A stretch of 64,000 nucleotides of DNA, from positions 1,178,001 through 1,242,000 of the forward strand of contig NZ_CP118164.1 of assembly GCF_028748185.1 (NCBI RefSeq). The letters are read 5' to 3'. A model generated the notes under the pieces. It was not told the DNA's origin. It saw only the letters and a list, made by a program, of their open reading frames with translations, and made no database searches. Numbering within the stretch: the stretch's first letter is position 1; every line of letters begins with the position of its first letter. Shown here piece after piece: positions 7,788 through 19,492 of this stretch. Origin of the DNA: Bremerella sp. P1 (lineage in GTDB: Bacteria > Planctomycetota > Planctomycetia > Pirellulales > Pirellulaceae). The translations under genes were made by a program, and so were the position numbers.

Positions 7788-8210
7788 ATGAACGGTGGTG
7801 AAGGCGTCTTAATCCTGATCGGGATCGCCATTGCGGTGAGCGTAATGTTTCGGCTGTTGGCCGGTTCACTCGATCGGGATCGCGTTCATCAATACATCAC
7901 CAGCATCGGTGGTGAACTCTTAGAATCACACTGGGATCCTTTCGGCCCTGGCTGGTTTGGTGAGAAGAACGATCGCATCTACAAGGTCCGTTATCGTGAT
8001 CGCCAAGGCTGCATCCACAGCGCCCACGTGAAGACATCAATGATGAGTGGCGTCTATCTGACCAATGACACAATCATCAGCCGCCCCCAGCCCAAAACCG
8101 AGCCCCCTCGCCCGAAACATCTCGATTTACCCGAAAAGCAGGAGACGGTTGAGGAGGAAAAGGCCCGACTTCGCAGGCGCTTGGCCGAACTAGAGGAGTT
8201 GGACGATTAG
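7788..8210 (+). CDS. Single-pass membrane protein with charged tail, unknown
   Basis: Not recognised. 140 residues: an N-terminal hydrophobic helix (about residues 5-26), then a compact domain containing GGELLESHWDPFGPGWFGEK and KVRYRDRQG, and a C-terminal heptad-like charged helix (EEEKARLRRRLAELEEL). The middle part looks like a small beta domain, with the coiled-coil tail as a possible oligomerisation element. No informative neighbour. Confidence 0.7.
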   Translation: MNGGEGVLILIGIAIAVSVMFRLLAGSLDRDRVHQYITSIGGELLESHWDPFGPGWFGEKNDRIYKVRYRDRQGCIHSAHVKTSMMSGVYLTNDTIISRPQPKTEPPRPKHLDLPEKQETVEEEKARLRRRLAELEELDD

Positions 8211-8317
8211 TTCGTTCATGGCAGATTCTCCAGCGGCATGCTAAACTTGGGTATCTAACCGAATACCTCCCTCAGGCGGTTTCCAATCGCTTGATTTGCC
8301 TCCCTCCCCGGCCCTGG

Positions 8318-9655
8318 ATGTTCATGACCACAGCCCGTTGGTTACCGCTGTCGCTCGGTTTGCTTCTAACGACGTCCTCCTGGACGTTTGCCGCCGATTA
8401 TTTCGTCGCTCCGGATGGCCTTGATAGTAACCCTGGAACCAAAGAAGCCCCGTTCGCTTCGATTCAACATGCCGAAACAGCCGCCGAGCCAGGCGACACC
8501 GTTTACTTGCGTGGCGGCACCTATCGTATGCAGGAAGCCGACATCGCCCGCAAGCGGCGGATCTGGGCCTACGTGATTCACCTGCGGAAGAGCGGCAAAG
8601 AAGGCCAACCGATTCGTTACTTCGCCTATGAGAACGAGCGTCCGGTCTTCGACTTCTCGGACGTGAAGCCGGAAGGCCACCGCGTGCATGCGTTTCAGGT
8701 CGAAGGTTCATGGCTTCATCTGCGGGGCATTGAAGTGGTCGGTGTGCAGGTCACCATGACCGGGCACACACAATCGATCTGTTTCGCCAACGAAGGACAC
8801 CACAATGTCCTGGAGCGGTTGAGCATGCACGACGGCCATGCGATCGGCATCTATGTGGTTCGCGGCAGCGATAGCTTGTACCTCAACTGCGATGCCTACA
8901 ACAATCATGATCCCGTCTCGCAGGGAGGTCGCGGCGGCAACGTCGATGGCTTCGGTTGTCATCCCCGGCCGGGGGCAAAGAATAATGTCTTTCGCGGCTG
9001 CCGAGCCTGGTTTAACGCCGACGACGGTTTCGATTGCATTAGCGCCGATGAAGCCGTTCGCTTCGAGAACTGCTGGGCTTTCTGGAATGGCTACTCATCC
9101 AAATTCGAAGCCCGGGCCGATGGCAACGGTTTCAAGGCCGGTGGCTACGGCGTTTCGCCCAACCCCCGCGCACCGCGTGACATTCCTCGGCACGTGATTC
9201 AGAACTGCGTGTCCGTCGGCAACAAGAACAGCGGCTTCTACGCCAACCATCATCCCGGCGGCTGCGACTGGCTGAACAACACGGCCTATCGCAACGGAGC
9301 CAACTTCAACATGTTGAACCGTTCGACCGACTTCCAAAAGGATGTCCCCGGCTTCGGTCACGTCTTGAAGAACAACGTAGCCTACGGTGGCCGACGAGCG
9401 ATCGTGAACATCGACGAGCAAGAGTGCACGCTCGAGGCGAACACGTTCGACAACGAAATCGAAGTCACCAAGGAAGACTTCGTCGAGCTGAAAGACAACC
9501 AGCAACTGTCCGCAGCCCGGCAGGCCGACGGAAGCCTCCCTCAGATGACCTTCCTGAAGCTATCGCCAAACAGCAAGCTTATCGACGCTGGCGTTGATGT
9601 CGGCTTGCCCTTGGAAGGAAAAGCACCCGACATCGGGGCGTTTGAAACCAAGTAA
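8318..9655 (+). CDS. Secreted right-handed beta-helix protein, polysaccharide lyase family 9-like
   Basis: Predicted exported pectate/uronate lyase-like enzyme. The ATG at 8318 starts a normal signal peptide ending near SWTFAA; a TTG further upstream would add non-signal residues. The mature protein begins DYFVAPDGLDSNPGT, the usual opening of these beta-helices, followed by PGDTVYLRGGTY. The segment GGNVDGFGCHPRPGAKNN then CRAWFNADDGFDCI resembles the Ca-binding and catalytic region of PL9 enzymes, where a lysine acts as base. It starts the plus-strand half of the degradation locus, 46 bp before the Gfo/Idh/MocA gene. PL9 assignment is by motif only; another beta-helix family is possible. 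Confidence 0.8.
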   Translation: MFMTTARWLPLSLGLLLTTSSWTFAADYFVAPDGLDSNPGTKEAPFASIQHAETAAEPGDTVYLRGGTYRMQEADIARKRRIWAYVIHLRKSGKEGQPIRYFAYENERPVFDFSDVKPEGHRVHAFQVEGSWLHLRGIEVVGVQVTMTGHTQSICFANEGHHNVLERLSMHDGHAIGIYVVRGSDSLYLNCDAYNNHDPVSQGGRGGNVDGFGCHPRPGAKNNVFRGCRAWFNADDGFDCISADEAVRFENCWAFWNGYSSKFEARADGNGFKAGGYGVSPNPRAPRDIPRHVIQNCVSVGNKNSGFYANHHPGGCDWLNNTAYRNGANFNMLNRSTDFQKDVPGFGHVLKNNVAYGGRRAIVNIDEQECTLEANTFDNEIEVTKEDFVELKDNQQLSAARQADGSLPQMTFLKLSPNSKLIDAGVDVGLPLEGKAPDIGAFETK

Positions 9656-9701
9656 TCAACTCCTCTCCCTAAACTCTCTTCTCAATATCAACTGGCCTAC
9701 C

Positions 9702-10883
9702 ATGAAACGCCGTACCTTCCTTGCTGCCTCGTCCGCTGCCTTGGTTTTACCGTCGGCGGCCTATGCGATCACTCCTCCGCGTCCCACCGCCGTGATCGGG
9801 CATACTGGCCGCGGCAACTATGGGCATGGGCTCGATACGATGTGGCTTAAGATCAGCGAGACACAAGTGGTGGCCGTGGCCGACGCCGATCCGCGTGGCT
9901 TGTCGCTGGCCACCAAACGGCTGGAAGGGGCCAAAGGATTTGCCGACTACCAGGTCATGCTCCATACCGTGAAGCCCGAGTACGTTTCCGTTTGTCCGCG
10001 ACATCCCGACCAGCACTTCGATATGGTCCTGGCCGCCATCGAGGCAGGCGCCAAGGGGATCTACTGCGAGAAGCCATTCGTTCGTAACCCAGCCGAAGCC
10101 GATGCCCTGATCGCCGCGGCCGAGAAACGCGGCACCAAGGTCGCCGTCGCGCATCGCAATCGCTATCACCCGGCGCTGGAGCATATCGATACGCTCATCG
10201 AATCGGGCGAGCTTGGCAAAGTCCTGGAGCTGCGCGGCAAAGGCAAGGGAGACCATCGCGGGGGTGGCGAAGACCTGTGGGTGTTGGGCTCGCACATCGT
10301 CAACTTGTTCTGCTACTTCGGCGGCGGCAAACCGAAGAGTGTCTCCGGTATGCTGCTGCAAGATGGCAAGCTGGTTACCCGCCAGGATGTTAAACGTGGC
10401 AACGAAGGTCTGGGACAGCTAGCCGGCAACGAAGTGCATGCCCGCTTCCTAATGGACAACGGCATGGTTGCATACTACGAGTCGATCGCCAACGACGGCA
10501 CCAGCCCCAATGGCTACTGCTTTCAAATCATCGGCAGCAAGGGAACGGTTACCTGGCACATCGACCGCGACCCGGTCGCCCACTTCACGCCGGGCAACCC
10601 TTACGATCCAGCGAACACGCCTCGCAAGTGGATTCCAATTACTTCCCAGGGAGTCGGCAAAGAGGAAACGGATCCTGAATCAATCCAAAAGGTTCACAAC
10701 CACGTCGCTGCGGGAACCGACTTACTGTGGGCGGTGTCCGGCAATAGTGCTCCTAAGTGCGATATTCAGGATGCTGCCTGGACCGTGGAAATGATCTGCG
10801 GCGTCTTCGAATCGCATCGCCAAGGCGGAAAGATCGTCGAGTTCCCTCTCAAGGAACGAGAAAACCCGCTTGCGAAGCTTTAA
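9702..10883 (+). CDS. Gfo/Idh/MocA family oxidoreductase with Tat-like leader
   Basis: NAD(P)-dependent sugar or inositol dehydrogenase-type protein, probably exported folded. The ATG at 9702 begins an RRTFLAA twin-arginine leader ending near AYA. The Rossmann segment is VIGHTGRGNYGHG, less canonical than GxGxxG, followed by VVAVADADP. The family motif EKPFV is present as YCEKPFVRNPAEAD near residue 125, and the catalytic-region lysine lies in it; later HRGGGEDLWVLGSHIVNLF supplies the conserved His. 393 residues. Short gap after the lyase gene implies an operon. Substrate unknown; release products of the neighbouring lyase are an inference. Confidence 0.88.
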   Translation: MKRRTFLAASSAALVLPSAAYAITPPRPTAVIGHTGRGNYGHGLDTMWLKISETQVVAVADADPRGLSLATKRLEGAKGFADYQVMLHTVKPEYVSVCPRHPDQHFDMVLAAIEAGAKGIYCEKPFVRNPAEADALIAAAEKRGTKVAVAHRNRYHPALEHIDTLIESGELGKVLELRGKGKGDHRGGGEDLWVLGSHIVNLFCYFGGGKPKSVSGMLLQDGKLVTRQDVKRGNEGLGQLAGNEVHARFLMDNGMVAYYESIANDGTSPNGYCFQIIGSKGTVTWHIDRDPVAHFTPGNPYDPANTPRKWIPITSQGVGKEETDPESIQKVHNHVAAGTDLLWAVSGNSAPKCDIQDAAWTVEMICGVFESHRQGGKIVEFPLKERENPLAKL

Positions 10884-10901
10884 CGCGTCGTCAATCGTTC
10901 C

Positions 10902-10929
10902 CGTGGGTACCACACGACTGGTACCCACG
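10902..10929. terminator. Perfect hairpin between convergent genes
   Basis: Arms 10902-10912 and 10919-10929 are an 11-bp perfect inverted repeat (CGTGGGTACCA) with a 6-nt loop, 18 bases after the oxidoreductase stop. There is no T-run on either side, so it may be a weak bidirectional terminator or an RNA-stabilising hairpin. Confidence 0.5.
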
Positions 10930-10963
10930 CGTCCTGACTTGAAGGCCTGGTGGCCAAAGCCAA

Positions 10964-12469
10964 TTACTTGGCCTGATCCCACAGCACGAACGGATCGTCC
11001 AGGCGTTTCATTTCTGCCTGCAGCAAGGCTTCCAATTCTTTTCGCTGGGGCGCGTACTTCGGATCGTCGGCCAGGTTCGTTTGATGCTTCTCGGGAGTCA
11101 TGCCAGTCATGGCGATCACTTCCTTGGCGTGATGCTGCGGCAGGAACTCGTGCGGGTTCTCGGCCAGGTTGAACAGCTGCGTCTCTTGCACACCGGCACT
11201 GGGCACATCGTACTTCAGCAGCTTCCAGTCACCTTTCTTCACGCATCGCATGCCAGGCTTTTCGCCGCCACAGTACACGCCGTACAGCACGTCGCGAACG
11301 GTATCCTTTTCGCCCATTAATACGGGCTTGAAGCTTTCGCCTTCGTTGGTCTTGGGCGCCTCAACGCCAGTCAGGTCGCAGATCGTTGCCAACACGTCCA
11401 ACAAGTAGATATTCCCCTCAGCACGCGTGCCAGACTTGATGCCAGGGCCTTTGACGACAAACGGAACGCGCCAGGTGTGCTGGTAAAGGTTCTGCTTCCC
11501 TTGCAGACCATGACGACCAATCGCCATGCCGTGGTCCGCAGTGTAGATGATGTAGGTGTTGTCGAGTTCCCCCATCGCTTCGAGCTTGTCCAACACCTTG
11601 CCGATCTGGATGTCGATGTTTTCACTGCAGGCAAACTCACGCCCCAGTTCGTTGCGGATGGTCGCCTCGTCACGGTTCGTCCACACGCCACTGACAGACA
11701 CTTCGTCGCGCACGTTCAAGTGGCTATTCTCAAACGGATGCTTGGGCAACCAGTTGGGCGGCATCTGTGGCTGCTTGTCGTTGGGCTCCGGCAGTGTCGT
11801 CTGCTTGGTGTGATTGATCGAACCGTACTTCTCCAGCAGTTCCGGCGTACCGTCACGCGTATCGTGCGGGTGCGAGAACCCGAAGTAAATCAGAAACGGA
11901 TCTTTGTCGTTCGCCTTCTCTCGCTCATTTAAATAATCGAGAACCTGCTTGCCATGCCAGGCACTACCGGTCTCTTCGGTGCCACCCCGCTTCGAAGCAT
12001 CCCGAACGACGGTGAACTGCTTGTTAGCCCCGTCGTAGCTGTTCCCCTTCTTACAGGTTCGCATCGTGTCGTACCCGGCACGATTGAACACGGCGGCCAT
12101 GGTGTATTCCGGAAGGTTCTCAGGAACCAGGCCCGCATTCCCTTCATTCGGGTTTCGCTTGCGGTTCATTCGGCTAGGAATGTGCCACACGGTGCGACCA
12201 CTCATCACCATGTGTCGCGATGGTGTGCAAACTGCTCCCGACCACGAGCCCATATGATAGGCCCCATCGAAGACCATGCCGTCGGCCGCCAGTTGGTCGA
12301 TCACGGGTGTATGGAGCTTGGAGTCCTGATTGTAGAACTTGAAGTCAAACGGAGATTGATCGTCGGCAATGATAAACAAGATATTCGGCCGTTCGGCTGC
12401 CGAAGCGGTCGCCATTAGGCCGACCGTCAGAAGCAAACACGCGAGTGCCATTCGAGTAGCGATGATCAT
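10964..12469 (-). CDS. Type I sulfatase (formylglycine-dependent), secreted
   Basis: Hydrolyses a sulfate ester after conversion of its active-site Cys to formylglycine. Start ATG 12469 has an AGGAC site and a clean signal peptide ending in ASA. Residues 29-37 give NILFIIADD with the paired metal-binding Asp; the maturation motif CTPSR starts at Cys81; a later YTADHGMAIGRHGLQGK carries the Asp-His metal/sulfate ligands and basic residues. 501 residues, normal for the family. Last gene of a minus-strand run of three sulfatases, 36 bp after the previous stop. Needs a formylglycine-generating enzyme, not found in this window. Substrate not deducible. Confidence 0.95.
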   Translation of the reverse strand: MIIATRMALACLLLTVGLMATASAAERPNILFIIADDQSPFDFKFYNQDSKLHTPVIDQLAADGMVFDGAYHMGSWSGAVCTPSRHMVMSGRTVWHIPSRMNRKRNPNEGNAGLVPENLPEYTMAAVFNRAGYDTMRTCKKGNSYDGANKQFTVVRDASKRGGTEETGSAWHGKQVLDYLNEREKANDKDPFLIYFGFSHPHDTRDGTPELLEKYGSINHTKQTTLPEPNDKQPQMPPNWLPKHPFENSHLNVRDEVSVSGVWTNRDEATIRNELGREFACSENIDIQIGKVLDKLEAMGELDNTYIIYTADHGMAIGRHGLQGKQNLYQHTWRVPFVVKGPGIKSGTRAEGNIYLLDVLATICDLTGVEAPKTNEGESFKPVLMGEKDTVRDVLYGVYCGGEKPGMRCVKKGDWKLLKYDVPSAGVQETQLFNLAENPHEFLPQHHAKEVIAMTGMTPEKHQTNLADDPKYAPQRKELEALLQAEMKRLDDPFVLWDQAK

Positions 12470-12505
12470 GGAAAGTCCTAGATGGGGTGATGGGACAAGG
12501 TTAAC

Positions 12506-13966
12506 TCAGTTCTTTTCACTCTTCCAAAGGTCGATGTTATTCGTATCGTTCTTTGATTTCGGTCCGTCGGTGCTACGACCACGCTCGACGTCGGCTTGCA
12601 GTTGCTTTAACAGTCGCTGGGCAATCGACACTTCGGTCAGGTAGCGATTGTCCTGTTCACCAACGTCTTCGGTCATGTTGTAAAGCTGCGCCTTGGGAGC
12701 ATTCTTACCCGCCTGCTTTTCATTGGGGGAACTCCACCCGCCGGATCCGCGAGCAAGGGCCAACTTCCACGGACCTTGTCGATAGGCGAAGTGCCCACTG
12801 ACCGAATGATGGACAACACCAGTTCGAGTCGAAGAGATCGGCTTGCCGGAGAGTGCTGGCAGAAAGCTGACGCTATCCTCGCAAGCGTCCGACGGAACCT
12901 CGGCCCCGATCAACTCGGCTGCAGTCGCAAACCAGTCGGTCAAGCAGATCAACTGATCGCTTGTCGAACCTGCTTCAACTTTGCCAGGCCAACGCACGAG
13001 AAACGGTACACGATGTCCGCCGTCCCAGATGTCGGCCTTTGAGCCGCGAAGATGGGCACTAACGATGTGCCCCTGCTCGGCCAGCTTCTGGATGCCGGCC
13101 GCTTTGCTACAGCCATTGTCACTGGTGAAGATGACCAAGGTATTGTCGGTCAGACCGTTACGCTCGAGTGCCTTACTGACCTCGACGACGACGTTATCGG
13201 TCTCCATCACGAAGTCGCCGTAGTCCCCCAGGCCGCTTTTGCCCTGCCAGGCTTCGGTCGGCAGGATTGGTGTATGGGGCGAGCCGAGCGGAATGTACAG
13301 GAAGAAAGGTTGCTTGCCGCCCGCATGCTGATCGATGTACTCGACGCTCTTCCTGGTAAGTCGCGGCAGCATATGGATGGGAGGATCATGGGCAATGACC
13401 GTATCGTTCTCGATCACCGTCTGCATGTCACGCGCGTGGTGAAAGCCGTGGTAATAATCGAATCCGCGAGCCAGCGGGCCATCCGGAATCTTGGTGCCCA
13501 CCGGCGGCGACTTGAAGTCCTTCGCCTTATATGGCTTGCCCGTTTGAGGATCGCAGTACTGAAAGTTCAAGTGCCACTTGCCAATGATCGCCGTCTGATA
13601 GCCGTGCTCTTTCAAAAAACTGGCCACGGTCGGGCGGTCTTCGTCAATCAAGCAAGGGGCAAAACCGGTTACCACACCCTTTTGCAACGTGGTCCGCCAA
13701 CTGTAACGCCCGGTCAACAAGCCGTAGCGAGTCGGCGTACAAACGGATGAACCGCTATGAGCATCGGTGAAGGTCATGCCCTGCTTGGCGAGTGCATCGG
13801 CACCCGGCGTGGCAATCTTACCGTGCTCGGGATTGAGACACTGGACGTCTCCATAGCCGAGATCATCACACATGATGAAGACGATGTTCGGCTTCTCTGC
13901 GCCCCACAGAATCTGCGGTACAAATAGCACTAACGCCAAGCAAAACCAAGTCACTCGAGAGGTCAT
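12506..13966 (-). CDS. Type I sulfatase, secreted
   Basis: The ATG at 13966 is preferred over an in-frame GTG at 13984 because AGGAG lies eight bases before it; the gap to the upstream sulfatase stop is then 17 bp. 486 residues with a signal peptide ending near LWGA, NIVFIMCDDLGYGD metal site, and maturation motif CTPTR at Cys76. GKWHLNF and FTSDNGC.KAAG segments supply the other active-site residues, as in arylsulfatase A-type enzymes. Middle gene of the sulfatase run and probably co-transcribed with both neighbours. Confidence 0.94.
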   Translation of the reverse strand: MTSRVTWFCLALVLFVPQILWGAEKPNIVFIMCDDLGYGDVQCLNPEHGKIATPGADALAKQGMTFTDAHSGSSVCTPTRYGLLTGRYSWRTTLQKGVVTGFAPCLIDEDRPTVASFLKEHGYQTAIIGKWHLNFQYCDPQTGKPYKAKDFKSPPVGTKIPDGPLARGFDYYHGFHHARDMQTVIENDTVIAHDPPIHMLPRLTRKSVEYIDQHAGGKQPFFLYIPLGSPHTPILPTEAWQGKSGLGDYGDFVMETDNVVVEVSKALERNGLTDNTLVIFTSDNGCSKAAGIQKLAEQGHIVSAHLRGSKADIWDGGHRVPFLVRWPGKVEAGSTSDQLICLTDWFATAAELIGAEVPSDACEDSVSFLPALSGKPISSTRTGVVHHSVSGHFAYRQGPWKLALARGSGGWSSPNEKQAGKNAPKAQLYNMTEDVGEQDNRYLTEVSIAQRLLKQLQADVERGRSTDGPKSKNDTNNIDLWKSEKN

Positions 13967-13983
13967 GTTCGTGCTCCTGTGCA

Positions 13984-15489
13984 CTATTTCGCCAAACGGG
14001 GTGCGGAGTGGCCTTGCTGCTGGATCTTGGCCAACAGCTTCTGCATCTGCTCAACCTTCTCGGGGTGATCGGCCGCCAGGTTGTGACGCTGACCGATGTC
14101 GTTCTTTAGGTTGTACAACTCGACCGGTTGATCGTCGTCGCCTGGATAATTGTGCCGAGGCTCCCAGGCTTGCCAGCCCTTCGAGCGATAGCCGGTCTTG
14201 TGATCGACCAGCAGCCAGTCGCCGTCTCGGATGGCATACTGTTTGTCGAACGTGTTATGCACGTGCGATGCCCGAACGTCTTCGGTCTCACCCTTGAGGT
14301 GTGGCAGCATGTCGTGTGAATCTTCGGCGGCATCATCCGGCAACTTATAGCCGAGTGCCGAAGCAAAGGTCTCCATCAAGTCGATCTGCGAAACCAAAGC
14401 ATCACTTACACTGCCAGGCTTGGTCACGCCTGGCCAACGGACGATAAACGGCACGTGATGGCCACCTTCGTAGATGTCTCGCTTCAAACCGCGGAACGGC
14501 TCTGGCGACCAGTGACCATACTTCGCATCGCGAGCATAGGCGTAATGCTCAGGCCCATTGTCGGCCGTGAAGACAACGATCGTGTTGTCGGCCTGGCCCG
14601 ATGCTTCCAAAGCAGCGAGCAGTCGGCCGACCATCGCGTCGGTTTCGACGACAAAGTCACCGAAGGGTCCGGCACCACTCTTTCCGTCGAAGGCATCGTT
14701 GGGAATGATCGGAGCATGGGGACAAGGAAACGCGAAGTAGAGGAAGAACGGTTCCTTCTGATCTTTTCGCGACTCAAGATACTCGACGCCTTGATCGGTC
14801 AGCGTCGGCAGCACGGCATAGGGATCCCAACCGGTGACCATCGGACCCGGACGACATTCCCAACTCCCTTCCTTAATCTTCTTCCACTTCGACTCGTCTT
14901 TCATCGTGTCGGGGATCTGGGCCATCTTGTCATCTTTGATCCAGGCATACGGCGGAAAGTTGATCACCGTATCGCCAAAGTAATGATCGAAGCCGTGAGC
15001 GAGCGGTCCGTCAGGGATCGATTTCGTCCAATCGAAGCTGTCAGGCTGAATGCCTTTGTTCTTACGAATCGCATTCCAGTCCCAGCCCAGGTGCCATTTA
15101 CCGATGCAGGCGGTGGTGTAGCCTTGCTCTTTGAGCATCTCTGGCATGGTCAAACGCTCAGGCTTGAAGACCGATCCACCAAATGCATTCACGATCCCAT
15201 GAAAGTCGCGCCAATGATGTCGACCGGTAAGCAGTGCATAGCGACTGGGTGTGCAGATGCCGGACGAAGAATGCCCATCGGTGAATCGCGTGCCGGAAGC
15301 CGCGAGCTTGTCGAGATTGGGCGTGGGGATCTTTCCCTTGGCGTTGTAGCAAGAGAGATCGCCGAACCCAAGATCATCGGCATAGAGAATCAAAATGTTG
15401 GGCTGGTCTTTTTCGGCGGCACGCAGCGTACCGGCCGACGTACTAACCAAAGCCAATAATAGCGCAGCAAACAGAAGGGGTCGCATCAT
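13984..15489 (-). CDS. Type I sulfatase, secreted
   Basis: Start at ATG 15489, where the signal peptide [14 protein letters not shown] begins; the longer open frame upstream has no signal character. 501 residues, leader ending in [18 protein letters not shown] metal site, maturation motif CTPSR at Cys79, then [10 protein letters not shown] and [11 protein letters not shown] with the conserved Asp-Asn. First gene of the three-sulfatase run. It is 152 bp downstream of the sialate O-acetylesterase gene on the same strand. Resembles arylsulfatase A-like enzymes acting on sulfated sugars. Confidence 0.94.
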
Positions 15490-15641
15490 AAGTTCAGGCT
15501 CGATAAGCGGTTGGGGCGGGATCGAAACTCGAAAACGAGGTGGCCAGTGGGCACAACGGCCCCTGGGCACTATTAAACAGCCGCGCGCGATCGATCCTGT
15601 CGCGCTAATTCGGATGTTTCGCGAAGTTTCCTGAAATCAAC

Positions 15642-17156
15642 CTACGGCGCGTAGTCATCCGTTCGGAACGGCACCGCCGGCAAATCCCAGTCGTTGATCA
15701 AATTCACTTGCGGGAACGAGGCAAACGCGTAGCGAACGGCGACCGGATCAGGGACGTCTTCGCTGGTCAAGCGAACCGTCTCGCCGTTGATCTTGGCCAC
15801 CGCTGGCTTCCACTTGCGATCCTTGCCGGAAATCCAAAATCCCGTTGGGTCGTTGCCGTCCGTGGTCTTCAGACCTCGGGCATGACTAAGCGATACCACG
15901 GCTGTCGCTCCATCGATCTGCATGCTCTTCAATTGCGGACCGGACGGATCGACTCTGCCCGGCTGAAGATAGTTCAGCGCGATCATCGCCAACCGTTTAC
16001 CAATGGGACGTTTGTCGGTCGGATGAATGTTAGTGAGGTGTCCCAGATCGATCGTGTTCGCCAGCCCGGTGTTGGGCAGTTCCAAGAGCTTGGCCTGCGA
16101 CTCGCGCATCCATGCCCATCCGTGCGCGATGGGTGACTCAACATCCTTGGTCGGCGACGTAGCAGCCATGCGACCATAGCGAGGAAGCATGACGGCCAGC
16201 ATCTGGAAGTCCTCGTTCTGAAAGCGATCCCGCAGCAGTTGGGTCCATAGCTTGAGCGTCTCGCCATACTGCTTCATCGTCACGAGCGAATGCGAGTTGG
16301 CTTCTCCCTGATACCACACCATCCCGCGAACGCTAAGTGGTTCGAGCGGATGCAACATCGCGTTATACAGAAGATTCGGCCGCTTGCGGAGGAAAATGTT
16401 TTCATCGCGCGTCCATCGCTCGCCGCCTGCCTGTTTGGCGATCAAGCTGGCGACGCGGTCGTGCTCTTCGGTGTCCAACTGATTCAGTGCCGCTTGGAAG
16501 TGAGGCAGGTCCTTACCCAAACTGCGCGGCATCCAGCCTTCGATGGACGAGCTTCCCCAGGAGGTTTCAATAACAGCGACCGGCACGTTTAGCGACTTCT
16601 GCAAGTCGTAAGCGAACGTGGTGGCAACGGCACTGTTGCCAGGGCCGGCGATCCACTTTGCCTGGCAACGATCTTGCTCCTCGAACGCCACGTCCTGTGT
16701 GATCTGCAAACAGCGAACCTGCTGTGAAGTCAGCCTATCCGCGAGTTTCTTGATTTCGGGGATACCCTTGTAGCCCATTTGCATGTTGGACTGTCCACTA
16801 CAAATCCACACTTCGCCGAACATGACATCCTGGGCGATCAGCGTCTGCTCGCCGCTCCGGGCAATCAGCTCATAACCGCTGCCGGCTTGCATAGCCTCCA
16901 GCGATACCTTCCAACTGCCGTCGGCGGCGACCGTGGTGGTGGCCTGCGGATCCTTGCTCATAACCAGCTGGTCGCCGATCTTCACGGTGACCTTCTCGCC
17001 TGGTGTTCCCCAGCCCCAAACCCGAATCGGCATATCGCGCTGCAGAATCATGTGATCACCGAAAGGAGACGCCCACTGAAATGGCTCAGCGACGGCCGTT
17101 CTGTGCGCGAAAACACACGACAAGAGGGCAAGCAGAAACAAAAACTTTCGGACCAT
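15642..17156 (-). CDS. Sialate O-acetylesterase-type SGNH esterase, secreted
   Basis: Removes O-acetyl groups from sugars or glycans. Start ATG 17156 opens a signal peptide ending near AVAEP. An N-terminal beta domain contains PFGDHMILQRDMP and VWGWGTPGEKVTV, standard for this family. The nucleophile motif is EVWICSGQSNMQM with Ser120; GVVWYQGEAN-like motif appears as MVWYQGEANSHS, and the catalytic Asp/His region as NIHPTDKRPIGKRLA. 504 residues. Faces the XylR-type regulator across a 283-bp promoter region and precedes the sulfatases, which suggests that de-acetylation and de-sulfation work on the same polymer. Confidence 0.93.
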   Translation of the reverse strand: MVRKFLFLLALLSCVFAHRTAVAEPFQWASPFGDHMILQRDMPIRVWGWGTPGEKVTVKIGDQLVMSKDPQATTTVAADGSWKVSLEAMQAGSGYELIARSGEQTLIAQDVMFGEVWICSGQSNMQMGYKGIPEIKKLADRLTSQQVRCLQITQDVAFEEQDRCQAKWIAGPGNSAVATTFAYDLQKSLNVPVAVIETSWGSSSIEGWMPRSLGKDLPHFQAALNQLDTEEHDRVASLIAKQAGGERWTRDENIFLRKRPNLLYNAMLHPLEPLSVRGMVWYQGEANSHSLVTMKQYGETLKLWTQLLRDRFQNEDFQMLAVMLPRYGRMAATSPTKDVESPIAHGWAWMRESQAKLLELPNTGLANTIDLGHLTNIHPTDKRPIGKRLAMIALNYLQPGRVDPSGPQLKSMQIDGATAVVSLSHARGLKTTDGNDPTGFWISGKDRKWKPAVAKINGETVRLTSEDVPDPVAVRYAFASFPQVNLINDWDLPAVPFRTDDYAP

Positions 17157-17439
17157 TAGAGAATTCTTTCGATACAGGCAGGATACGTTGACAAGCCTGG
17201 CAATGAGTACTCTTAAACGCTTTACAGGAAACCACATACGATAACAAGCAGACCGGCCAAATTAGGCCATCTATGCCATGATTTGGTACAAATACGCCCC
17301 GTCTCTTAGGGAGAAACAACCACCTAGTCTATTGCAAAAACACGAAATTGCACGTAAAACCTTGCGCAATACACCATACAAGATCGCGCACGTCGACGTC
17401 CTCTCCCTTTGACGGGCCAACCTGACATTCTGGACGCAT
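17157..17439. promoter_or_regulatory. Divergent promoter region of the degradation locus
   Basis: Between the esterase and regulator genes. ATTGCA occurs at 17331-17336 and 17347-17352, and the second copy forms an imperfect inverted repeat with GCGCAAT at 17364-17370 (6 of 7 matching, 10-bp spacer). Such elements 70-110 bp before the regulator ATG could be its operators. No clear -35/-10 pair was found. Confidence 0.4.
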
Positions 17440-18639
17440 ATGAGTGAAAAAATAACGATCGGGATCCATTCAGCTTCTTGGACCGAACATTCCCGACGCG
17501 TGTTGCAAGGACTACTCAATTACATCGAAGAGTATCCCAACATTCAAGTTCGCGACTTTCGATTCTCGAGCAACGACCCCAACCTGGTCGGCAATCCTCC
17601 GTGGGCGGGCAAAGTGGACGGGGCCATCGTTTCCGCTGGTCGCAACGCCGGCATCACCACTTGGCTCAAGCGAGGCAAAGTCCCGGTAGTCCTGGCCAGT
17701 GGCGACTTGATTGATTCCGGCTTCGTCTCGGTCTACACCGATGTGCATTCGGTCGGTCGACTTGCCGCGTCTCACCTGACCGAAGCAGGCTTCGAGCACA
17801 TTGCCTTCGTCGGATACCAGAAGTCGGACGGATCGAAACGACGCCGCGACGGACTCGCGGATGAACTCACCAAGCGCGGCATCAAGCTCAAGGCCGTTGC
17901 CCTCAAGGAAATCCCGGTGGATACGGTTGATGAAGACCGAGAGATCTCCGAATCAACGGTCGAAAAGATTCAACAGCTACTAGAGAAGTCCCCCAAGCCG
18001 CTTGCCGTTGTCGCGCTTAACGACGTCGTGGCCGAGTTTGTCGCGAAGATCGCCCTCGAAATGGGGCTCTCGATTCCTGATGAAATCGGCGTGCTGGGCG
18101 TGGGAGACTCGGAACGTGCTCGCATGGCCGATCCACCACTTTCCAGCGTGCATACGCCCGGCGTCGAGATTGGCTACCGCTGTGCGTCGCTACTGCACTC
18201 GATGATCTTAGGGAACACCCCGAAGGAAACCGTTTTCGAGATCCCCGCCGAGCAGGTCTCGGCCAGGCGTTCAACCACCGGCTGGAAACGTGCCGCGGTG
18301 ACCGATATCGATCGGGCCGTGAGCTACATTCGCGAACATGCCTGCGACGGTATTCGCTTGAAGGATGTTTCGAGTGCAGTCCGAATTCCGATCCGTACCT
18401 TAGAGATCGAATTCAAAAAGCAGATCGGCCGCTCGATGGGGGAAGTGATCCGCGAAGTTCGCTTGGAACGCGTGAAGCATTTGCTCGAGACGACTAATCT
18501 CTCGACGCAGCGGATCGCAGCCATGGTGGGCTACAGTCACTATTCCTACTTGAATAAGTTGCTGCGTGACGAATTGAATGTCACCCCCAGCCAGTACCGC
18601 AAACAGCAGCGGAAAGCCAACGCTGAGCTGGAATCGTAA
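17440..18639 (+). CDS. XylR-type transcriptional regulator (LacI-like sensor plus AraC domain)
   Basis: Sugar-sensing activator in the cytoplasm. Residues 1-275 form a periplasmic-binding-like sensor (ITIGIHSASWTEHSRRVLQG, VYTDVHSVGRLAASHLTEAGF, ALNDVVAEFVAKIALEMG, VGVGDSERARMADPPLSSV), the fold used by LacI and XylR. Residues about 290-395 are an AraC DNA-binding domain with two helix-turn-helix units, including RLERVKHLLETTNLSTQRIA and GYSHYSYLNKLLRDE, and the terminal P-S-QYR. The E. coli XylR has this same order. Position between the esterase/sulfatase operon and its own promoter suggests control of the locus; the inducer is unknown. Confidence 0.92.
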   Translation: MSEKITIGIHSASWTEHSRRVLQGLLNYIEEYPNIQVRDFRFSSNDPNLVGNPPWAGKVDGAIVSAGRNAGITTWLKRGKVPVVLASGDLIDSGFVSVYTDVHSVGRLAASHLTEAGFEHIAFVGYQKSDGSKRRRDGLADELTKRGIKLKAVALKEIPVDTVDEDREISESTVEKIQQLLEKSPKPLAVVALNDVVAEFVAKIALEMGLSIPDEIGVLGVGDSERARMADPPLSSVHTPGVEIGYRCASLLHSMILGNTPKETVFEIPAEQVSARRSTTGWKRAAVTDIDRAVSYIREHACDGIRLKDVSSAVRIPIRTLEIEFKKQIGRSMGEVIREVRLERVKHLLETTNLSTQRIAAMVGYSHYSYLNKLLRDELNVTPSQYRKQQRKANAELES

Positions 18640-18793: not shown

Positions 18794-19492
18794 ATGCCGG
18801 CCTGGACAGTGAAGAACGCGTGGACGCCATCCACGATTCAGTCCTACCGTAATTACGCTAAAACCAATGGTCCACGCCGTGCAGGCAACTTGCGTTCGAC
18901 CTGCGAGGACCTTTCGATCCGCATGGTGGTCGACTTTGCTGAGCAGAATAATCTGCCGGTATTCTTCGGCAACAACGCCAACTCACAGGGGCTCGACCCG
19001 GCCAAGTTCAATTCGAAGGCGGCGTACCTGGACGCAGTGCTCCCTTCGACCGGGGCCAGCGACCTGTTGGACTACAATACCGTCGTGATGGTGAAAGGCG
19101 CCCAGAAGGGGAACGCCAACGTCAGCTTGCCGCTGGCCAAGCCAGGCGACCTGATCATCCTGTACCAAGGAGGCGGACACGTCCAAGTCGTCACCTCCGT
19201 TACCCCAGGCACCGTGAATATCGTCCAGGGAAACTTTCGCCCATCCTCACAGCGATGCGGCAGAATCGATCGCGTCTGGAATGGCCAGAATCAGAACGAT
19301 CCGGCATCACGGTGCTACATCGGCGAGATCGTCGCGCAGAAAGCGTACACACGATCTGGCACGCCTCCGAAATGGACATTCACCGGAGGCAGGGATGAAT
19401 TCTCGAAGGAGGGACGGCTTTGCATCTGGGACTTCGATGGCTGGAACGACTTCGTTCCCAACTATAACCGCGCGAAGGCTACCACGCCGTAA
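18794..19492 (+). CDS. Papain-fold-like hydrolase (CHAP/NlpC type), unknown
   Basis: 232 residues after a strong GGAGGG site. No signal peptide or membrane segment. STCEDLSIRMVVDFAEQ (Cys37), then AKPGDLIILYQGGGHVQVVTSV (His129) and VNIVQGNF (Asn147) follow the order, spacing and 'PGDLI...HV.VV' wording of CHAP and NlpC/P60 cysteine peptidases/amidases. The C-terminal 60 residues, rich in Trp, Arg and Asp, are not recognised. A strong terminator follows. If exported it could act on peptidoglycan cross-links or toxin-like targets, but nothing in the context shows this; planctomycete envelopes can be peptidoglycan-containing. Confidence 0.65.
   Translation: MPAWTVKNAWTPSTIQSYRNYAKTNGPRRAGNLRSTCEDLSIRMVVDFAEQNNLPVFFGNNANSQGLDPAKFNSKAAYLDAVLPSTGASDLLDYNTVVMVKGAQKGNANVSLPLAKPGDLIILYQGGGHVQVVTSVTPGTVNIVQGNFRPSSQRCGRIDRVWNGQNQNDPASRCYIGEIVAQKAYTRSGTPPKWTFTGGRDEFSKEGRLCIWDFDGWNDFVPNYNRAKATTP

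Follow-up and report, generated by a model that had tools for sequence, protein, structure and literature searches.

Sulfatase genes of planctomycetes have been described as co-oriented, dissimilar and adjacent beyond chance, forming operon-like groups near other carbohydrate enzymes, and these sulfatase operons turn over rapidly, even within genera (PMC4807772; this and all other PMC sources are cited from the parts of their text that were available). Co-localised carbohydrate-active enzymes (CAZymes) are frequent in distinct planctomycete groups, and to the knowledge of those authors the clusters had not been functionally characterised (PMC11131199). For planctomycetes, a pilus has been proposed to take up polysaccharides whole (PMC12078418). 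Among single enzymes, BT4170 is a rhamnogalacturonan-I (RG-I) lyase whose partners in the degradation of plant RG-I are arabinosidases and galactosidases (PMC8787155), and P36_S1_25 is an exo-3-sulfo-L-rhamnose sulfatase (PMC9096561). The present work concerns a seven-gene locus at positions 8318-18639 of a 64,000-nucleotide stretch of the Bremerella sp. P1 genome (contig NZ_CP118164.1, positions 1,178,001 to 1,242,000; the window), which encodes a PL9 polysaccharide lyase, a Gfo/Idh/MocA oxidoreductase, three sulfatases (S1a, S1b and S1c), an acetylesterase and a regulator. We give about an even chance to the reading that it is a genus-specific cluster, arranged in two units, whose target would be an acidic polysaccharide that carries sulfate and acetyl groups and most likely contains rhamnose-uronate linkages.

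Results

Gene content and arrangement

Six-frame open reading frames (ORFs) and Pfam matches show all seven genes open and in the expected order, which bears out the gene content, order and strands given in a first-pass annotation of the window. The lyase and oxidoreductase on the plus strand converge tail-to-tail on the esterase and sulfatases on the minus strand, where the esterase is followed by S1c, S1b and S1a, the last ending at 10964. The regulator, on the plus strand, is divergent from the esterase and carries PF13377 and PF12833, in agreement with the LacI-sensor/AraC regulator that had been annotated there. Signal peptides were judged by eye to be present at the N-termini of the lyase, the esterase and the sulfatases.

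The PL9 lyase, the esterase, the sulfatases and the AraC-type regulator, as assigned from Pfam without a dbCAN run, form a CAZyme gene cluster in the dbCAN sense, that is, a CAZyme with a second CAZyme or an auxiliary gene within two genes (PMC11131199). Among the seven genes there is no SusC/SusD pair by Pfam, so that the locus is not a polysaccharide utilisation locus of the SusCD type. The first-pass annotation had singled out this absence; it holds at the locus, where alone SusC and TonB genes were looked for, but it marks no special system. SusD (PF07980) was found in 0 of 98 relatives including the own genome, with a positive Bacteroides control, and because of this and of the pilus-based uptake proposed for planctomycetes (PMC12078418) a missing SusCD pair is to be expected.

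Conservation within the genus

The genomes searched were these 98, namely nine of the genus (G000-G008, where G000 is the window's own genome, 6.96 Mb in one contig) and 89 others, and the queries were PL9, the regulator, S1a, S1c and the oxidoreductase. For the last four, at most 15 or 19 candidates were scored in each genome. Stretches around matches, up to 20 kb long, were fetched, and the esterase and S1b were compared within them. The regulator, S1c, S1b, S1a and the oxidoreductase occur in the same order and orientation in all nine genus genomes. The PL9 lyase is present in six (G000, G002, G005, G006, G007 and G008) and absent from G001, G003 and G004, in each of which a whole-genome protein search gave one short weak match and the family model no full one. 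The esterase is intact at the locus in six genomes (G000, G001, G002, G003, G005 and G007), is a deleted remnant of residues 1-130 and 475-531 in G006, and is missing at the locus in G004 and G008. Because the losses of the lyase and the esterase mostly fail to coincide, the invariant unit is the three sulfatases with the oxidoreductase and the regulator, to which the lyase and esterase seem to be accessory. The synteny of all seven genes, which had been named as the check on the first-pass annotation, is accordingly found for five of them in the genus; it breaks at the lyase in three genomes and at the esterase in three, and none of the 89 other genomes yielded the cluster.

Ratios of nonsynonymous to synonymous substitution rates (dN/dS) were about 0.035-0.14 for the regulator, the oxidoreductase and the sulfatases when the window was compared with G006, G001 and G004. 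The comparison with G006, the only unsaturated one for PL9, gave 0.10 for PL9 and 0.06, 0.05-0.07 and 0.04 for the oxidoreductase, the sulfatases and the regulator, respectively; the synonymous rate is saturated against G008. The joint retention of five genes in nine genomes and these low ratios speak against a chance arrangement. In an unrooted FastTree phylogeny of five proteins, (G003, G007) and (G002, G005), the latter with a support of just 0.46, stand apart from G008, G004, G001 and (G000, G006); the tree of the flanking zinc peptidase differs and pairs G001 with G006. Identity to the window in G006, G008, G005, G002 and G007 falls from 89 through 78, 71 and 69 to 68% for PL9 and from 95 through 91, 87 and 84 to 81% for the regulator. 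Since the PL9-less species are scattered in both trees and the divergence of PL9 tracks that of the regulator, the simplest reading of the sequences is that PL9 was ancestral to the genus and was lost about three times.

The same pattern of losses bears on a different explanation, in which the core would be a desulfation-and-oxidation module that processes sulfated oligo- or monosaccharides of several polymers, with PL9 and the esterase as opportunistic neighbours. It accommodates a core kept in nine of nine genomes against six for PL9 and six for an intact esterase, with both missing only in G004, and it fits the persistence, in the PL9-less genomes, of the oxidoreductase with a similar box upstream and of the regulator orthologue. 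The order of PL9 divergence is the regulator's, which makes PL9 probably ancestral to the genus and, together with its dN/dS of about 0.10 in that one comparison, tells against a merely opportunistic lyase; we regard this explanation as unlikely.

On one side the locus is flanked by a DUF1559 gene in all nine genomes and on the other by the zinc peptidase in eight (none was seen in G002). An alpha/beta-hydrolase gene that flanks the locus in G006 (L032:1597-2433) has one in-frame stop, for which its dN/dS was set aside. The slot between S1a and the oxidoreductase is variable: in G001 it holds a GNAT gene by Pfam, as well as a gene for a leucine-rich-repeat protein, in G008 a GNAT gene 72% identical to the first, and in G004 a similar ORF (L054:12340-15587, L056:12765-13901 and L033:9848-10984 in the three genomes). 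A CHAP-like gene, under the Pfam cut-off, adjoins the regulator at 18794-19492 and is present at the locus only in G000, G001, G004 and G006.

Regulator, intergenic box and promoters

The regulator (17440..18639, plus strand) is a fusion of a LacI/periplasmic-binding-like sensor (PF13377, Peripla_BP_3, residues 111-279, 110 bits) with an AraC helix-turn-helix domain (PF12833, HTH_18, residues 312-389, 66 bits), an arrangement that we take to be the one named XylR-type. Between it and the esterase lies a conserved box at 17329..17392 (plus strand), a candidate XylR operator. Across the nine genomes, 27 of 80 columns are invariant at -120 to -40 upstream of the regulator, versus 6 of 180 at -300 to -120, and the halves of the box are repeat-like (17356-17368 and 17378-17390, 9 of 13 bases alike). 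The pattern GCGC...ATCGCGCA, with at most one mismatch, has a single site per genome, always in the regulator-esterase gap (9/9), and its reversed control gave 0; the pattern was derived from these nine sequences, so that its presence is by construction and the result is its uniqueness. The regulator's own promoter may account for part of the box. Because the box is absent from the PL9 promoter, the switch probably serves the esterase-sulfatase operon and the regulator itself. The single switch of their own that had been annotated for all seven genes is not supported, for the same reason, the candidate operator being found only between regulator and esterase.

Upstream of the lyase, GGCATGCTAAACTT (8235..8248, plus strand) was identified by eye as an extended -10-like box and would be a candidate promoter of the lyase-oxidoreductase unit. 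By eye, a box of this type is recognisable upstream of PL9 in G000, G006, G008, G005 and G002 and unclear in G007. A similar box, also found by eye, precedes the oxidoreductase in the PL9-less G001 and G004 and, in a looser form, in G003, which is what a deletion of PL9 that spared its promoter would leave. A 140-amino-acid ORF without a Pfam match is located upstream of PL9 (7788-8210), and similar ORFs occur in G001, G005, G006 and G007.

Lyase and oxidoreductase

The lyase (8318..9655, plus strand, from an ATG at 8318, with a signal peptide by eye) has the Pel9A-like right-handed beta helix of family PL9, scoring 314 bits with PF22842 against a cut-off of 25. It matches PDB entry 5olq, 'Rhamnogalacturonan lyase', which we take to be BT4170 of Bacteroides thetaiotaomicron, at E 9e-107 (361 bits, 181 of 396 aligned residues identical, 46%), and the pectate lyase 1ru4 at 188 bits. 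Its NADDGFD and NGFKAGG motifs align with both structures, and NxDDGFD and NGFKAGG are kept in all six PL9 copies of the genus; presumably these hold the catalytic Lys and the cluster of Ca-binding Asp residues. PL9 is rarer than the sulfatases: G000 carries one copy, and at E<=1e-40 the family model had matches in 23 of the 397 genomes that represent the class.

The oxidoreductase (9702..10883, plus strand, probable ATG at 9702; PF01408 and PF22725) begins 46 bases after PL9. Its N-terminus, MKRRTFLAASS, resembles a twin-arginine signal by eye, and R5, R6, E125-K126-P127 and H200 are invariant in the nine genus genomes. Enzymes of the Gfo/Idh/MocA family commonly carry Asp after His in the equivalent of the GSHxxN motif that is read here, of which Asn203 is likewise invariant in the nine genomes. 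Its solved relatives are all distant, and the best match, a weak one, is DgpA, presumably a C3 glycoside oxidase.

Sulfatases

All three sulfatases belong to PF00884, and the formylglycine-sulfatase motif C-x-P-x-R is present in each of them in all nine genus genomes. S1a (10964..12469, minus strand; 128 bits) has CTPSR in 9/9 and, as its best solved relative, 6hr5 at E 6e-30, which is P36_S1_25, an ulvan sulfatase of Formosa agariphila. S1b (12506..13966, minus strand, in an ORF that opens at 13984; 169 bits) has CTPTR in 9/9 and is best matched by 7oze, 9s7x and 6s20, and S1c (13984..15489, minus strand, in an ORF that opens at 15570; 197 bits) has CTPSR in 9/9 and is best matched by 7oze at E 2e-78. 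The probable ATG starts of S1b, S1c and the esterase were chosen by eye from their signal peptides. The solved matches of S1b and S1c include S1_15 structures; in S1_15, which acts on 6S-Gal/GalNAc, an Asp-Arg dyad and a His bind O4 and O3 (D173, R174 and H225 in BT_3333; PMC6994673). In this region the alignment of S1c with 7oze is loose, and those of S1b and S1c with 6s20 leave the region out.

Sulfatase-domain matches in G000 numbered 133, of which 127 were retained after six partial ones had been removed by hand. Among these 127 there are six same-strand runs of at least three sulfatases with starts less than 2.6 kb apart, the run of the locus included, and when sulfatases were placed at random among an assumed 5600 genes, about 1.6% of the trials contained one such run or more. 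Clustering of sulfatases is non-random, but it is a property of the whole genome and not of the locus, and with six such runs in the genome the triple run is not remarkable in itself. Three more sulfatase-domain genes are scattered within the window, at about 29189, 39489 and 50456.

S1b and S1c are 39% identical, and S1a and S1c share 25-35% over short stretches only; S1c is closer, at 58%, to a paralogue elsewhere in the genome (15 of 155 candidates scored). The low mutual identity and this closer paralogue rule against a recent tandem duplication of the three, and an ancient duplication giving rise to S1b and S1c is possible.

Esterase

The esterase (15642..17156, minus strand, in an ORF that opens at 17237) is a SASA/CE20-like acetylesterase with 66 bits for PF03629. 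It matches the solved 9ega, 9h4u (presumably Fl8CE20_II) and 7kmm (presumably XacXaeA) at E 6e-71 to 5e-65, and GQSNM and IHPxDK are kept in all six intact copies of the genus. With an SGNH domain, GQSNM and a D/N-x-H block, here N-I-H within NIHP, it has the features of CE20 (blocks as given in PMC12313940). It is shorter than its relatives: the alignment passes over residues 221-407 of 9ega against 33 residues in the esterase, and from this alignment the inserted ancillary domain of CE20 seems to be absent. The designation 'sialate O-acetylesterase' is a family name and no evidence for sialic acid.

Occurrence outside the genus

The whole cluster was not found in the 89 non-genus genomes, many of which are fragmented into hundreds of contigs, so that linkage may be overlooked in them. 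The regulator, with an orthologue in all nine genus genomes, was found in 0 of the 89 at E<=1e-90. S1c occurs in 36 of the 98 genomes at E<=1e-120, the nine of the genus included. Close linkage among matches to PL9, S1a and S1c was seen in none of the 89 genomes: G052 has them on separate contigs, and about 92 kb separate S1a from S1c in G036.

Neighbourhoods of PL9 were surveyed with the window proteins, among them three sulfatase queries, which other sulfatases could escape; the survey left out the PL9 contigs of G086, G059 and the G391 match, and L046, L051 and L052 were compared separately. A recurrent association of PL9 with sulfatases in other genera is rejected on the 24 distinct PL9 contigs examined. 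By Pfam, the functional context is clear at only one of the selected neighbourhoods, that of Pedobacter puniceum (L043), and the others are mixed. There a PL9 relative (55%) adjoins PL11 and GH28 genes, a rhamnogalacturonan-I setting, and an S1c-like sulfatase (25%; L043:2278-3825) lies about 6 kb from PL9; this locus with its distant sulfatase is a lead for sulfated rhamnogalacturonan.

In L052 (Opitutaceae), a SASA homologue (34%) is located 2.2 kb from PL9. In G045 (L063:7230-10629), an S1a homologue (67%) is found just downstream of an esterase homologue (43%), the only linkage of two locus genes at 40% identity or above among the fetched non-genus loci.

Discussion

The nearest solved relatives, 5olq for the lyase and P36_S1_25 for S1a, hint at a sulfated rhamnose/uronate polymer as the target. 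We infer activities, locations and regulation as follows. The minus-strand unit of esterase, S1c, S1b and S1a would act outside the cytoplasm and strip off acetyl and sulfate groups; the divergent XylR-type regulator would sense a released sugar, act at the intergenic box and switch this unit. The plus-strand unit of PL9 and oxidoreductase would be under its own promoter; the lyase would cleave the polymer backbone through beta-elimination, and a released or exposed sugar would be modified by the exported oxidoreductase. The lyase and the esterase would have been gained or lost, perhaps according to the exact polymer available.

Several observations weigh against this proposal. The intergenic box has no copy at the PL9 promoter, and PL9 and the esterase have been lost independently of the sulfatases, together only in G004. 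The match of S1a to P36_S1_25 is weak (108 bits), and S1a is spread across the order away from PL9, in 43 of the 98 genomes at E<=1e-90, the genus nine included. At 26 non-genus PL9 loci on 24 distinct contigs, the three sulfatase queries found one sulfatase within the fetched stretch in five cases, at 25-30% identity and once in Pedobacter puniceum, and two sulfatases or the regulator were found on 0 of the 24. A PL11 model found nothing in the nine genus genomes, other rhamnogalacturonan lyase families not having been searched. Because the top NCBIfam profile of the lyase is the PelN pectate lyase (NF041899, 341 bits over residues 20-454, below the cut-off of 740), the lyase may act on pectate instead of rhamnogalacturonan.

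Some of these observations would also suit two unrelated units that happen to be adjacent, one a lyase-oxidoreductase pair for pectin/RG-I and the other an independent sulfatase operon, kept together by general synteny. The two units meet tail-to-tail with no common regulatory box, no such PL9-sulfatase cluster was seen elsewhere on the 24 distinct PL9 contigs, and the closest NCBIfam profile of the lyase is that of a pectate lyase. Synteny is high here in any case, as unrelated-looking flanks (the DUF1559 gene, the zinc peptidase, the alpha/beta-hydrolase and a 575-amino-acid ORF) are mostly syntenic too. Two facts tell against this explanation, which we consider improbable: the oxidoreductase between the units is never lost, and the arrangement is stable in nine genomes, which suggests selection upon it because sulfatase operons otherwise turn over fast (PMC4807772).

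We further consider, as a long shot, that the core is a regulated desulfate-and-oxidise pathway with the lyase and esterase as optional parts. The exported sulfatases would expose a hydroxyl of a sulfated sugar, the exported Gfo/Idh/MocA enzyme would oxidise it and elimination at the glycosidic bond would follow, such that cleavage would proceed without a dedicated glycosidase.

The seven-gene cluster is real, functional-looking and built from familiar parts, probably serves to degrade a sulfated sugar polymer, and is one of several of its sort in a sulfatase-rich genome. The first-pass annotation had considered it a plausible undescribed degradation system; a compact carbohydrate-enzyme cluster under purifying selection with a local regulator is indeed present, but operon-like sulfatase clusters of planctomycetes have already been published (PMC4807772). 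In open-licence full text we found no publication on this gene set, none that joins PL9 with sulfatases in a gene cluster and none that joins planctomycete sulfatases with XylR and AraC. What has been gained is that an invariant core of sulfatases, oxidoreductase and regulator can be told apart from a lyase and an esterase that are dispensable. Planctomycetes are very rich in sulfatases, and this cluster, small, stable and with a regulator dedicated to it, lends itself to experiment: the nine genomes, with their natural lyase-minus and esterase-minus members, are ready to be compared for the genes that each polymer requires.

Compared with described systems, the lyase is of the same PL9 family as 5olq, with 46% identity and aligned catalytic and Ca-site motifs, and differs in having three sulfatases alongside; PelN is its top profile, at a score short of the equivalog cut-off. 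The ulvan lyases of Formosa agariphila belong to families other than PL9, and its ulvan system has SusCD. With that system (PMC9096561), which is directed at a sulfated rhamnose polymer, the locus shares the pairing of a lyase with sulfatases, and P36_S1_25 (6hr5) is the nearest solved sulfatase to S1a, at weak similarity. With CE20 acetylesterases (PMC12313940) the esterase has the GQSNM and D/N-x-H blocks in common and is shorter. CAZyme gene clusters without SusCD, as far as they are described in the available parts of PMC10233909 and PMC11131199, show the same grouping of lyase, esterase and regulator, to which the locus adds a record of conservation. Finally, the locus is alike in kind to the operon-like sulfatase clusters of planctomycetes in the available part of PMC4807772, and differs from them in a five-gene core that is stable in nine genomes.

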